DNA from: Siphonodentalium dalli
Taxonomy: Eukaryota > Mollusca > Scaphopoda > Gadilida > Siphonodentaliidae
Length of the DNA: 64,000 bases
NCBI GenBank assembly: GCA_032622095.1
Contig: CP136062.1
Location: 18,355,739-18,419,738 of the forward strand
Direction of reading: 5' to 3'
The position numbers and the translations under genes are program-made. The notes beneath the pieces were generated by a model that made no database searches, was not told where the DNA came from, and saw only the letters and a list, made by a program, of their open reading frames with translations. Within the stretch, counting starts at the first letter, position 1, and the number at the start of each line of letters is the position of its first letter. Positions 28,270 through 56,145 of this stretch are shown here, piece after piece.

Positions 28270-29020
28270 ACATGTATACAGTATATAGGCTCTTGTGTAG
28301 TCTCGTGTATACAGTATATATACTCTTGTGTAGTCTCGTGTATACAGTATATATACTCTTGTGTAGTCTCGTGTATACAGTATAGACTCTTGTGTAGTCT
28401 CGTGTATACAGTATATAGGCTCTTGTGTAGTCTCGTGTATACAGTATAGACTCCTGTGTAGTCTCGTGTATACAGTATATAGACTCTTGTGTAGTCTCGA
28501 GTATACAGTATATAGACTCCTGTGTAGTCTCGTGTATACAGTATATAGACTCTTGTGTAGTCTCGTGTATACAGGATATATACTCTTGTGTAGTCTCGTG
28601 TATACAGTATATATACTCTTGTGTAGTCTCGTGTATACAGTATATATACTCTTGTGTAGTCTCGCGTATACAGTATAGACTCTTGTGTAGTCTCGTGTAT
28701 ACAGTATATAGGCTCTTGTGTAGTCTCGTGTATACAGTATAGACTCCTGTGTAGTCTCGTGTATACAGTATATAGACTCTTGTGTAGTCTCGAGTATACA
28801 GTATATAGACTCCTGTGTAGTCTCGTGTATACAGTATATAGACTCTTGTGTAGTCTCGTGTATACAGGATATATACTCTTGTGTAGTATCGTGTATACAG
28901 TATATAGACTCTTGTGTAGTCTCGTGTATACAGGATATATACTCTTGTGTATTATCGTGTATACAGTATATAGACTCTTGTGTAGTCTCGTGTATACAGT
29001 ATATATACTCTTGTGTAGTT
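28270..29020. repeat. 33-bp minisatellite, 23 copies, higher-order
   Basis: Unit: AGACTCTTGTGTAGTCTCGT followed by GTATACAGTATAT. Most units are 33 bp and some are 31 bp (missing TA). Units 4-9 and 13-18 carry the same ordered variants, offset by exactly 293 bp (7 x 33 + 2 x 31), so a nine-unit block was duplicated. Near the 3' end a 66-bp dimer (GGATATATACTC type then GTATATAGACTC type) is repeated. The long + frame is a consequence of the 11-codon unit. Confidence 0.9.
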
Positions 29021-33977: not shown

Positions 33978-36900
33978 CTGGGAGGTGGGCACACTATAGG
34001 TCTTAACAGGCAAGTCTCGCGCGTGCAGGGGAGTGGGCACATTATATGTCTTAACAGGCAAGTCTCGGGAAAGTGGGCATATTATATATTTTAACAGGCA
34101 AGTCTCCTGGAAGTGGGCATATTATAGGTCTTAAGAGGCAAGTCTCTTGGAAGTGAGCATATTATAGGTCTTAAGAGGCAAGTGTCCGGGAAGTGGGCAT
34201 ATTATAGGTCTTAAGAGGCAAGTGTCCGGGAAGTGGGCATATTATAGGTCTTAAGGGGCAAGTGTCCGGGAAGTGGGCATATTATATGTCTTAAGAGGCA
34301 ATTATCCGGCAAGTGGGCATATTATAGGTCTTAACAGGCAAGTCTCGGGGAATTGGTCCCATTATAGGTCTTACTATGCAGCCATGTCTCCGGGAAGTGG
34401 GCATATTATAGGTCTTAAGAGGCAAGTATGTGGGAAGTGGGCATATTATAGGTCTTAATAGGCAAGTCTCCGGGAAGTGGGCATATTATAGGTCTTAAGA
34501 GGCAAGTGTCCGGGAAGTGGGCATATTATAGGTCTTAAGAGGCAAGTGTCCGGGAAGTGGGCATATTATAGGTCTTAACAGGCAAGTCTCCAGGAAGTGA
34601 GCATATTATAGGTCTTAACATGTAAGTCTCCGGTAAGTGGGCATATTATATGTATTAACAGGCAAGTGTCCGGGAAGTGGGCATATTATTGGTCTTAACA
34701 TGCAAGTCTCCAGGAAGTGGGCATATTATAGGTCTTAACAGACAAGTCTCCGGGAAGTGAGCATATTATAGGTCTTAACATGTAAGTCTCCGGTAAGTGG
34801 GCATATTATATGTATTAACATGCAAGTCTCCAGGAAGTGGGCATATTATAGGTCTTAACAGGCAAGTCTCCGGGAAGTGAGCATATTATAGGTCTTAACA
34901 TGTAAGTCTCCGGTAAGTGGGCATATTATATGTATTAACAGGCAAGTCTCCAGGAAGTGGGCATATTATAGGTCTTAACAGACAAGTCTCCAGGAAGTGA
35001 GCATATTATAGGTCTTAACAGGCAAGTCTCCAGGAATGGGCATATTATTGGTCTTAACATGTAAGTCTCCAGGAAGTGGGCATATTATAGGTCTTAACAG
35101 GCAAGTCTCCGGGAAGTGGGCATATTATAGGTCTTAACATATAAGTCTCCAGAAACTGGGCATATTATAGGTATTAACAGGCAAGTCTCCAGGAAGTGGG
35201 CATATTATAGGTCTTAACAGGCAAGTCTCCTGGAAGTGGGCATATTATAAGTCTTAACAGGCAAGTCTCCGGGAATGGGCATATTATAGAAATTAACATT
35301 TAAGTCTCCGGGAAGTGGGCATATTATAAGTCTTAACAGGCAAGTCTCCGGGAATGGGCATATTATAGAAATTAACATTTAAGTCTCCGGGAAATGGGCA
35401 TATTATAGGTCTTAACATATAAGTCTCCAGGAAGTGGGCATATTATAGGTCTTAGCAGCCAAGTCTGTGGGAAGTGGGCATATTATAGGTCTTAACATAT
35501 AAGTCTCCAGAAACTGGGCATATTATAGGTATTAACATGTAATTCTCCGGGAAGTGGGCATATTATAAGTCTTAACAGGCAAGTCTCCGGGAAATGGGCA
35601 TATTATAGGTCTTAACATATAAGTCTCCAGAAACTGGGCATATTATAGGTATTAACAGGCAAGTCTCCAGGAAGTGGGCATATTATAGGTCTTAACAGGC
35701 AAGTCTCCTGGAAGTGGGCATATTATAAGTCTTAACAGGCAAGTCTCCGGGAATGGGCATATTATAGAAATTAACATTTAAGTCTCCGGGAAGTGGGCAT
35801 ATTATAAGTCTTAACAGGCAAGTCTCCGGGAATGGGCATATTATAGAAATTAACATTTAAGTCTCCAGGAAGTGGGCATATTATAAGTCTTAACAGGCAA
35901 GTCTCCGGGAATGGGCATATTATAGGTCTTAGCAGCCAAGTCTGTGGGAAGTGGGCATATTATAGGTATTAACAGGCAAGTCTCCGGGAATGGGCATATT
36001 ATAGGTCTTAGCAGCCAAGTCTGTGGGAAGTGGGCATATTATAAGTCTTAACAGGCAAGTCTCCGGGAAGTGGGCATATTATAGGTCTTAACAGGCAAGT
36101 CTCCAGGAATGGGCATATTATAGGTATTAACATGTAAGTCTCCGGGAAGTGGGCATATTATAGGTATTAACATGTAAGTCTCCGGGAAGTGGGCATATTA
36201 TAGGTCTTAACAGGCAAGTCTCCGGGAAGTGGGCATATTATAGGTCTTAACAGGCAAGTCTCCAGGAATGGGCATATTATAGGTCTTAACATGTAAGTCT
36301 CCAGGAAGTGGGCATATTATAAGTATTAACATGTAAGTCTCCGGGAAGTGGGCATATTATAGGTCTTAACAGGCAAGTCTCCGGGAAGTGGGCATATTAT
36401 AGGTCTTAACATATAAGTCTCCAGAAACTGGGCATATTATAGGTATTAACATGTAAGTCTCCGGGAAGTGGGCATATTATAGGTCTTAACATATAAGTCT
36501 CCAGAAACTGGGCATATTATAGGTATTAACATGTAAGTCTCCGGGAAGTGGGCATATTATAAGTCTTAACAGGCAAGTCTCCGGGAATGGGCATATTATA
36601 GGTCTTAACATGTAAGTCTCCAGGAAGTGGGCATATTATAGGTCTTAACATGCAAGTCTCCGGGAAATGGGCATATTATAGGTCTTAACAGGCAAGTCTC
36701 GCGCGCGCGCGGGGAAGTGGGCACATTATAGGTCTTAAGAGACAAGTGTCCGGGAAGTGGGCATATTATAGGACTTAACAGGCAAGTCTCCGGGAAATGG
36801 GCATATTATAGGTCTTAACAGGCAAGTCTCGCGCGCGCGCGGGGAAGTGGGCACATTATAGGTCTTAAGAGACAAGTGTCCGGGAAGTGGGCATATTATA

Positions 36901-37105
36901 GGACTTAACAGGCAAGTCTCCGGGAAATGGGCATATTATAGGTCTTAACATGTAAGTCTCCAGGAAGTGGGCATATTATAAGTCTTAACAGGCAAGTCTC
37001 CGGGAATGGGCATATTATAGGTCTTAAGAGACAAGTCTCCGGGAATGGGCATATTATAGGTCTTAGCAGCCAAGTCTGTGGGAAGTGGGGACATTATGCT
37101 GACTA
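33978..37105. repeat. 40-bp satellite array, about 78 units
   Basis: Unit: GTCTCCGGGAAGTGGGCATA followed by TTATAGGTCTTAACAGGCAA. Variants (AGGCAA/ATGTAA/ATATAA; GGTCTT/GGTATT/GAAATT) are ordered in blocks. A 120-bp trimer recurs at 34620-34960, GAAATTAACATTTAAG blocks recur at 35270-35890, and a 130-bp block with a GCGCGCGCGCGG run is duplicated with the runs at 36701 and 36831. Units abut with no unique spacers. Confidence 0.95.
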
Positions 37106-38255: not shown

Positions 38256-38336
38256 TGTCCAGATTTTATCTTGAACAGCGTTTGAAACTTGGTATGTGGC
38301 CTGTGTGTAATCCCGATTGCTTATATTTTTGTTTAG

Positions 38337-38681
38337 GTTTTGGCCCGTTCTTTTTTTGTTCTCTGTATATTATTTTAGGTTTGTGGCCACTCGGTTATCA
38401 TCCATATATTATTTTAGATTTTGGGCCGTTCGGTTATCATCCATATATTATTTTAGGTTTTTGGCCATTCGGTTATCCATATATTATTTTAGGGTTTGTT
38501 CCGTTCGGATATCAATATATAATAATTAGTTTAGGTTTGGGCCATTCGGTTATCCATATATATTTTTTTTAGGTTTTGGGCCATCGGTTATCCATATATT
38601 ATTTTAGGTTTTGGGCAGTTCAGTTATCCATATATATTATTTTAGGTTTTGTGTCATTCGGTTATCCATATATTATTTTAG
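38337..38681 (+). repeat. Minisatellite made from the exon's splice acceptor
   Basis: Nine diverged copies of TATTATTTTAG|GTTTTGGG followed by CCGTTCGGTTATCCATA, starting after AG at 38337, 38379, 38418, 38457, 38493, 38535, 38573, 38608 and 38646. The tenth copy is the real exon start at 38682. Each unit carries a pyrimidine/T-rich stretch, a TAG acceptor and codons for G-F-G-P-F-G. Spacing is 35-42 bp. The nearest unit is 36 bp (12 codons, in frame), so use of that acceptor would add 12 residues without a frameshift. Confidence 0.85.
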
Positions 38682-38851
38682 GTTTTGGGCCGTTCGGTTG
38701 TCACGAGGAGAATGTCAGTTGGAGTGCAGTAAAGGGAGTGGAGAGGATGGGGCTCGGCGAGGGTGTGGCGCTGGTCACGGAACAGCTTCCTGTTATGTAC
38801 GAACATGTGAAGAGCAGAATTCCACAACTGTGGAACGAACATAAACCAACG
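38682..38851 (+). CDS. PGPEP1: Pyroglutamyl-peptidase I, exon with GFGPFG loop
   Basis: This exon encodes the N-terminal part of a cytosolic cysteine peptidase (family C15) that removes N-terminal pyroglutamate from peptides. The acceptor is TTATTTTAG at 38673-38681 and the donor is GTGAGT at 38852. The first two bases complete a Gly codon split by the upstream intron (phase 1). The translation begins G-F-G-P-F-G, the substrate-binding loop of the family, then NVSWSAV, LGLGEGV-like text (here MGLGEGVAL), LPVMYE and IPQLWNEHKPT. These align with the human enzyme's NASWIAV, LGLGDSV, IPVEYQ and IPALWEKHSPQ. The exon is 170 bp and ends in phase 0. The upstream copies of its 5' boundary make the acceptor choice ambiguous by sequence; this one is chosen because the rest of the exon follows it directly. 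Confidence 0.92.
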
Positions 38852-40065: not shown

Positions 40066-40298
40066 CTCGTTGTTCATGTGGGAGTTGCAGACCCTTATAC
40101 TAAGCTAATAATAGAACACCAGGCGTTCAATGGATCATACAACAGAGCTGATGTTAACGGTGTACATCCACCATCACAGTGCTGTGTTGATGGCGGTGAT
40201 AATTGCATACAATCAGGGATAAACATGGACCAAGTGGTGACTGATATTAATAATCATTCATGTGCTGCCACAGCTGACTCATCTAAAGATCCCGGTCG
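40066..40298 (+). CDS. PGPEP1: Pyroglutamyl-peptidase I, middle exon
   Basis: The acceptor is TTGTTGCAG ending at 40065 and the donor is GTAAGT at 40299. The exon is 233 bp, phase 0 in and phase 2 out. The translation starts LVVHVGV, the central strand of the C15 fold, identical to the vertebrate enzyme. KLIIEHQAFN follows, whose Glu aligns with catalytic Glu85 of the human protein (TLEKCGHN). Next come NRADVNGVHPPSQCCVDGGD (human LDNCRFCPGSQCCVEDGPE) and INMDQVV. The exon ends DSSKDPGR, the Arg codon split by the intron, just before the catalytic Cys exon. Residue identities to the human protein are from memory of that protein. Confidence 0.93.
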
Positions 40299-47066: not shown

Positions 47067-47223
47067 ATACCTCTGTGATTTCTCATACTACACATCTCTG
47101 AATATAGATAAGCAAAGAGCAGCCTTCATCCACGTTCCACGTAAAGATAACCCTTACAGCGTCGACGAGTTGGCCGAAGGAATCCGGGTAGCCGTCTTAT
47201 CAATGTTACAACAATTAAGCTAA
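47067..47223 (+). CDS. PGPEP1: Pyroglutamyl-peptidase I, last exon
   Basis: The acceptor is TTTATTTTGTAG ending at 47066. The first base completes the split Arg codon, followed by YLCDFSYYTSL. The Cys there aligns with the catalytic Cys149 of the human enzyme (RYLCDFTYYTSL). AAFIHVPRKDNPYSVDELAE carries the catalytic His (human AFVHVPPLGKPYNADQLGR). The frame ends LSMLQQLS and TAA at 47221-47223. The C-terminus is shorter than the human one by about ten residues. No canonical AATAAA is obvious in the next 130 bp before a MITE begins at 47360. Confidence 0.93.
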
Positions 47224-47359
47224 GCTGAGATATACATTTACAGATATTTTCAATCATATTTTATAGATATGCAGAATGGTATTTCAGGTTTTTTAAATTA
47301 AATATTATCATGTGAAGCTAAGATTTCTGCTCTATTTGACTACTGTTTGTAATTATTTA

Positions 47360-48927: not shown

Positions 48928-48984
48928 CGTTCAGTTCTTATCGGTACAATGACAGATGACATATGACCCACCTTCAGGGAACAG

Positions 48985-49590
48985 TCTAGAAGGAGACTTG
49001 AGAGACAGGGACCAGCCTAGAAGGCGACTTGAGAGACGGGGACCAGCCTAGAAGGCGACTTGAGAGACGGTGACCAGCCTAGAGTGCGACTTGAGAGACA
49101 GGGACCAGCCTAGAAGGTGACTTGAGAGACAGGGACCAGCCTAGAAGGCGACTTGAGAGACAGGGACCAGCCTAGAAGGCGATTTGAGAGACAGGGACCA
49201 TCCTAGAAGGCGACTTGAGACAGGGACCATTCTAGAAGGCGACTTGAGAGACAGGGACCATTCTAGAAGGCGATTTGAGACAGGGACCAGTCTAGAAGGC
49301 AATTTGAGAGACAGGGACCATCCTAGAAGGCGACTAGAGAGACATGGACCAGCCTAGAGTGCGACTTGGGATACAGGGACCAGCCTAGAATGCGATTTGA
49401 GAGAACAGTCTAGAAGGCGACTAGAGAGACAGGGACCAGCCTAGAAGGCGACTTGGGATTATATACAGGGACCAGCCTAGAAGGCGATTTGAGAGAACAG
49501 TCTAGAAGGCGACTAGAGAGACAGGGACCAGCATAGAAGGCGATTTGAGAGACAGGGACCATCCTAGAAGGCGATTTGAGAGACGGGGAC
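48985..49590. repeat. 31-bp minisatellite, about 20 copies
   Basis: GAGAGACAGGGACCAGCCTA followed by GAAGGCGACTT, with units of 25-37 bp and ordered variants (GCCTAG/TCTAG/CCTAG). It stops directly at the LTR boundary at 49591. Confidence 0.88.
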
Positions 49591-55500: not shown

Positions 55501-56145
55501 GATACCAGAGATAATAAATGTTACAAATGATTTAAAGTCCCAGTAGAAAACCGCAGCCTATTTTTTTCTACCGTGTTCAATGTAGCGACATGTTACAATG
55601 TGTTACAAGTGTTACATTATTTCTGAGATACCAGAGAGACCGCTCGTAGACGGGTGTTACAAGTGTTACAAATGTTACAAATGATTTAAAGTCCCAGTAG
55701 AAAACCGCAGCCTATTTTTTTCTACCGTGTTCAATGTAGCGACATGTTACAATGTGTTACAATGTGTTACATTATTTCTGAGAGACCGCTCGTAGACGGG
55801 TGTTACAAGTGTTACAAATGTTACAAATGATTTAAAGTCCCAGTAGAAAACCGCAGCCTATTTTTTTCTACCGTGTTCAATGTAGCGACATGTTACAATG
55901 TGTTACAAGTGTTACATTATTTCTGAGATACCAGAGAGACCGCTCGTAGACGGATGTTACAAATGTTACAAATAATTTAAAGTCCCAGTAGAAAACCGCA
56001 GCCTATTTTTTTCTACCGTGTTCAATGTAGCGACATGTTACAATGTGTTACAAGTGTTACATTATTTCCGAGATACCAGAGAGACCGCTTGTAGACGGGT
56101 GTTACAAATGTTACAAATGATTTAAAGTCCCAGTACGGTCGAGAA
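55501..56145. repeat. Tandem array, unit 143-154 bp, 4.5 copies
   Basis: AAAGTCCCAGTAGAAAACCG starts at 55534, 55688, 55835 and 55978, with a partial copy at 56126. Each unit continues TTTTTTTCTACCGTGTTCAA, GCGACATGTTACAATGTGTT and GAGACCGCTCGTAGACGGGT, then GTTACAA words. Length differences come from the number of GTTACAA words and of the ATACCAGAG block. Confidence 0.9.

Follow-up and report, generated by a model that had tools for sequence, protein, structure and literature searches.

The closest described relatives of the structure reported here are the 'mirages' of amphioxus, which occur in Adh3, the globins BflGb6 and BflGb9, PGBD5 and troponin C and are minisatellite-like tandem duplications over an intron-exon boundary, on the acceptor or the donor side, with many copies carrying the AG or GT (PMC3087553, PMC3902484). 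RT-PCR suggests that these genes are spliced normally, and haplotypes differ in repeat number (PMC3087553, PMC3902484). Related tandem duplications are described for the potato RdRp, where the duplicate covers the end of an intron and the start of an exon, and for fission yeast, with 24-bp exonic duplicates (PMC4974935). In the open-licence literature searched, mirages were not found named outside amphioxus genes, the related duplications being those of potato and fission yeast.

We find that a peptidase gene in the window (the whole 64,000-nucleotide stretch analysed) carries an array at the 5′ boundary of its exon 2 whose closest known kind appears to be the amphioxus mirage; judged from the sequence alone, it matches the structural features of a mirage and would work like one. 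The parts of the gene and of the array are:

38311-38336, + strand: sequence to the left of the array, probably where the intron once ended, with a CTTAT motif
38337-38681, + strand: nine upstream (decoy) junction units, each with an exon-derived part (as GTTTTGGGCCGTTCGGTTATC) and an intron-derived part (as CATATATTATTTTAG)
38570-38572, + strand: TAG of the acceptor preceding 38573, the in-frame stop for the six most distal decoys
38646-38681, + strand: nearest decoy copy, the use of which would add 12 in-frame residues
38682-38851, + strand: exon 2 of the Peptidase_C15 (pyroglutamyl peptidase I) gene, which starts with GFGPFG in phase 1 and has the tenth copy as its first ~21 bases; its end is supported by the spliced retrocopy
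40066-40298, + strand: exon 3
47067-47334, + strand: exon 4 with the stop codon and the 3′ UTR, as far as the retrocopy matches (from the retrocopy alignment)

Ten tandem copies of the junction, with a unit of 35-42 bp, span 38337-38702, and the exon-side first bases of their TTTAG acceptors lie at 38337, 38379, 38418, 38457, 38493, 38535, 38573, 38608, 38646 and 38682 (successive spacings of 42, 39, 39, 36, 42, 38, 35, 38 and 36 bp). TRF detects the array independently from 38366 to 38699 or 38703, with scores of 330-378. In each copy TTTAG is followed by a variant of GTTTTGGGCCGTTCGGTT, the version in the last copy encoding GFGPFG, and the copy at 38682 is the sole one continuous with the Peptidase_C15 exon. 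We thus recover what a preliminary description had read from the letters, namely ten copies of a T-rich tract, TAG and GFGPFG codons 35-42 bp apart with the last alone joined to the exon; the TAG that it had the upstream copies 'mostly keep' is kept by all nine. The AG is present in 10/10 copies and is followed directly by GT in eight of them. All nine full units differ from one another, and the array, used as a DNA query against the whole 2.23 Gb assembly in a search that skips simple repeats and very common words, matched this locus alone. It is a minisatellite-like tandem repeat across an exon-intron boundary, as mirages of the amphioxus type are, and its unit falls within the 10-72 bp given for Adh3 (PMC3087553, PMC3902484). 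A chance origin was rejected on the TRF detection, the ten TTTAG acceptors and local shuffles of the loci sampled below. Elsewhere in the window, a 40-bp unit is repeated about 76 times (3 kb) at 34028-37097, upstream of exon 2, and further minisatellites lie at 28273-29019, 48975-49590 and 55516-56135, with units of 33, 31 and 145 bp, respectively.

The solved pyrrolidone-carboxylate peptidases carry GFDPFG or GFEPFG where the gene has GFGPFG (three alignments). Since this type of motif is a property of the family, the direction of copying is clear, from coding sequence into the intron, and the earlier proposal of decoy 3′ splice sites born by tandem duplication of the intron end and first coding bases is supported. 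The joined exons 2-4, all of them open frames, match Peptidase_C15 in a profile search at 54.2 bits against a gathering cut-off of 22.7, and the query stretches IIEH, YLCDF and FIHVP align with the ERV/ERA-, C- and H-containing stretches of the solved structures. The catalytic Glu, Cys and His of pyroglutamyl peptidase I lie in exons 3 and 4, and GFGPFG is the N-terminal loop of the enzyme, lining the pyroglutamate pocket. Calling the repeated codons a 'catalytic loop' was therefore loose.

The gene has a retrocopy on contig C3 (G000:C3:164909026-164909490, minus strand), in which the final 71 bp of exon 2 run directly into exons 3 and 4 and the 3′ UTR, with no introns between them, and an A-rich tail follows. 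It is 4.5% diverged from the gene over 154 codons (6 synonymous and 15 nonsynonymous differences) and is best read as a young, 5′-truncated processed copy of a spliced mRNA from this gene. With the whole 186-residue product as the query it is the one other match in the assembly besides the gene itself; the PF01470 family search matches the retrocopy alone, the exons in the window needing the protein query. The retrocopy supports recent transcription of the gene and the joins 38851/40066 and 40298/47067; starting 99 bp inside exon 2, it covers these two downstream junctions only and is thus silent on splicing at the array. Part of its 3′ UTR is doubled in tandem and is single in the parent gene. 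At four further junctions tested in the peptidase gene, no duplication was found. Upstream, no convincing exon 1 emerged from 118 kb (38 kb in the window and the next 80 kb) in a scan for a hydrophobic strand followed by T/S, G and a GT donor: the strict form of the pattern, which adds a start codon, had no match, and the relaxed form had nine, none convincing, among which the one at about 32012 (ending in MCRFKFCFTTG followed by GTGAGA) is a conceivable candidate.

The decoy acceptors lie 36, 74, 109, 147, 189, 225, 264, 303 and 345 bp from 38682, seven of the nine distances being divisible by three. Nevertheless, use of eight of the nine is predicted to lead into a stop, the TAG at 38570 serving six of them and the stops at 38605 and 38643 one each, and 38646 alone is open into the exon. 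As first noted, this nearest decoy is in frame and would insert 12 residues, GFVSFGYPYIIL. The accompanying view that the next three spacings shift the frame holds for 38608 and 38573, whereas 38535 and the five beyond it are back in frame and run into the stop at 38570. In the seven indel-free copies, the exon-derived part differs from the exon by 14 nonsynonymous and 5 synonymous changes, which indicates that it is not maintained as coding sequence.

Scored with a matrix built on 69 acceptors that were called in this genome outside the loci with duplicated junctions, the true acceptor at 38682 reaches 8.78, the 67th percentile, and five of the nine decoys equal or exceed it (8.78 to 11.18). 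Moreover, the 24 nt preceding 38608 and the 27 nt preceding 38493 match exactly those preceding 38682. Thus, local sequence gives the true acceptor no distinction over the decoys. Of the 69 genome acceptors, 54 have a full yUnAy motif 12-45 nt upstream, as against one of the ten AGs of the array: the CTTAT in the left flank (38311-38336) is the array's one full yUnAy and serves the outermost AG, the true acceptor being devoid of one. The array may perhaps have separated exon 2 from its former branch-point region. With the GT of the array unit taken as a donor, nine of the ten copies, including two that lack the GT, score no higher than the 2nd percentile of 92 donors from the genome, and the best, the copy at 38379, reaches the 22nd; by matrix score, then, the unit does not supply a usable 5′ splice site.

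With the tandem duplications of potato and fission yeast the array shares the copying of splice signals (PMC4974935). It differs from them in that the GT of its unit is a poor donor and in that it offers predicted sites alone, no new intron being seen. Tandem acceptors such as NAGNAG, where several AGs compete near one exon, likewise have multiple AGs close to a single exon; the acceptors of the array, in contrast, are 35-42 bp apart, each with its own upstream tract, and are copies of the whole junction.

For this genome, in a further difference from the amphioxus mirages, the frequency of such structures can be given among sampled exons. The sample comes from one assembly of one animal genome, with 2.23 Gb in nine contigs; lancelet genomes measure about 0.5 Gb, in 19-20 chromosomes, and the difference in size speaks against a lancelet as the host. 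It comprises 110 exons of conserved families, 30 of Cpn60_TCP1 taken first and 80 added, out of 304 matches listed (Cpn60_TCP1 38/39, proteasome 6/7, AAA 14/20, tRNA synthetase 15/28, myosin head 27/75, kinase 10/135). The added exons were hand-picked before their letters were seen, on the grounds that their open frame was short and that no near-duplicate had already been taken, with some eligible kinase matches omitted and some paralogous exons retained. Of the first 30 loci, L017 and L018 have long open frames and probably lack introns, and ten others make up five apparent near-duplicate pairs (L019/L020, L027/L028, L030/L031, L032/L033, L039/L040). A heuristic caller placed 178 junctions (76 acceptors, 102 donors) in 106 of the 110 loci; it missed L023 and L037 and, for L038 and the donor of L044, settled on a nearby AG or GT; these were placed by eye. 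A junction was counted as duplicated when its central 24 bp recurred within 300 bp with at most five mismatches. As a side observation on the kinases, at least 87 of the 135 protein-kinase matches listed lie at G000:C2:149.8-150.6 Mb, most with an equal score and a 281-codon open frame; from scores and places alone, they apparently form a large tandem array of near-identical, intronless frames.

With L023 and L037 added to the called junctions, tandem duplications span 12 junctions in 11 of the 110 sampled exons, five on the acceptor side (L023, L038, L044, L068, L077) and seven on the donor side (L037, L041, L044, L049, L094, L105, L125). Among the called junctions ten of 178 (5.6%) are duplicated, against 0/890 in local shuffles. 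At sampling points 12-180 bp into the intron the duplicated fraction is 2.8-6.7%, and at 72 bp inside the exon it is 0/178. In the first 30 loci, examined with longer flanks and a stricter cut, the values are 1.4% for exon interiors, 4.1-4.5% for exon edges, 3.7-6.6% for intron within 400 bp and 8-11% for intron at 400-1000 bp; there, TRF arrays lie across the exon edge in two loci and local duplications at the exon edge in five. Junctions thus behave as nearby intron does, with a possible deficit relative to farther intron, so that duplications at junctions may be subject to some purging. Tandem-array DNA constitutes 14% of the window, 10% of the 80 kb upstream and 5.9% of the first 30 sampled loci.

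Seven of the 12 duplicated junctions have a single extra copy, and others form ladders. In an AAA ATPase exon (L068; G000:C8:150238825-150239595, 1-330), which is an even cleaner case than the peptidase array, at least five near-identical 71-bp acceptor copies are found; as its frame is read, the repeat would encode the Walker A sequence GVLLYGPPGTGKTLL after the splice acceptor. In L077 the acceptor is present six times at intervals of about 50 bp, in L125 the donor is present six times at intervals of about 55 bp, and in L041 seven extra copies align with a 39-bp donor unit. Taken together with the nine of the peptidase array, there are 38 decoys, only four of which would be productive, giving an uninterrupted product in frame; five of the 34 predicted to be non-productive are so wholly or partly through loss of the GT. 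We therefore reject the idea that such ladders are generally usable in frame. Over the array and the genome sample, the acceptor AG is retained in 21/21 extra copies and the donor GT in 12/17, so that, as in the mirages, many but not all copies keep their splice dinucleotides. Six of the 24 acceptor columns compared show no change at all, and the chance that both AG columns fall among them is about 0.05, with copies that are not independent; on this basis the AG retention is not significant against the other columns as a sign of selection for the AG in the copies.

Comparisons between paralogues show births of such duplications over short time scales. The array of L077 is missing from its paralogue L127, whose exon is 75% identical. 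The duplication of L105 is common to L129 (92%) and missing from L130 (87%), L131 and L132, while that of L094 is common to L128 (97%). Further, between the 98% identical loci G000:C7:133489000-133489660 and G000:C7:133433220-133433880 (L133 and L134) the difference is about 61 bp of intron sequence duplicated in tandem, a sign of recent duplication.

We consider it probable, and hold with good confidence, that the peptidase array reflects a background birth of minisatellites that is tolerated at splice junctions, making it one example of a widespread by-product, not a special switch. Under this account, a short segment running from the 3′ end of intron 1 into exon 2, for ~20 coding bases, would have been duplicated in tandem and would have grown by slippage or unequal exchange into a ten-copy minisatellite, as is presumed for the many other short tandem duplications of the genome. 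Copies on the intron side would leave the protein unchanged as long as the copy abutting the exon is used, and so the array would be tolerated; we infer that splicing settles on this copy, exon definition being one possible means, and that decoys are rarely used, their use being expected nearly always to give a stop and probably mRNA decay. The same structure at 11/110 exons on both junction sides, together with the mere four productive decoys among 38, argues for a general mutational process. Three observations count against tolerated background: the AG is kept in 21/21 copies, although loss might be expected if decoys drift or harm; duplications at exon edges may be purged relative to those in farther intron; and the true acceptor is without a full yUnAy 12-45 nt upstream.

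The preliminary description instead saw a 'tunable ladder', in which controlled use of upstream acceptors would lower enzyme output through stop-containing transcripts or make an isoform with 12 added residues. The TTTAG of all nine decoys, the five that score at least as high as the true acceptor and the open frame at 38646 are in keeping with it. We nonetheless judge it unlikely: eight of the nine decoys are predicted to end in a stop, the retention of the AG is not significant, the copied exon sequence shows no coding conservation, and similar structures in unrelated genes and on both junction sides bespeak a general process. For the amphioxus mirages, splicing is reported to proceed undisturbed (PMC3087553, PMC3902484). 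A gene that is dead or dying, bereft of a usable first exon or acceptor, would leave the array free to drift, and the fruitless search for exon 1 over 118 kb upstream would fit; yet exons 2-4 are open and hold the catalytic residues, the spliced retrocopy, just 4.5% diverged, speaks for recent transcription, and exon 1 may be farther away or unusual in sequence, so that we give this reading little credence.

Early intron gain or sliding after the Rogers model, in which the unit would provide both splice sites and some of the array would turn into a new exon or intron, is favoured by the GT that directly follows the AG in eight of ten copies and by precedents, the model having been proposed for the amphioxus mirages (PMC3087553) and a related case described in a potato gene (PMC4974935). 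Given donor scores as poor as those above and no known spliced product, we regard it as highly improbable here. Tandem repeats are prone to misassembly, and an assembly artefact has that general proneness in its favour; with nine full units that all differ and similar arrays at 11/110 sampled exons, it is barely credible.

Returning to tolerated minisatellite birth, we tentatively put forward a broader view, as a serious possibility short of a probable one: that this lineage duplicates its junctions in tandem at close to the rate of nearby intron, leaving about one exon in ten with one decoy or a ladder of them; that the copy abutting the exon is recognised by position and not by local sequence; and that the decoys make up a store, spread over the genome, from which exon extension, control coupled to decay and intron sliding could arise. 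The 11 of 110 exons with a duplicated junction amount to many natural experiments in which near-identical or identical sites stand next to each other and differ in position alone. RNA of the species would accordingly measure how position, exon definition and decay set the choice of splice site, and would also show how often such duplications turn into new exons or introns.
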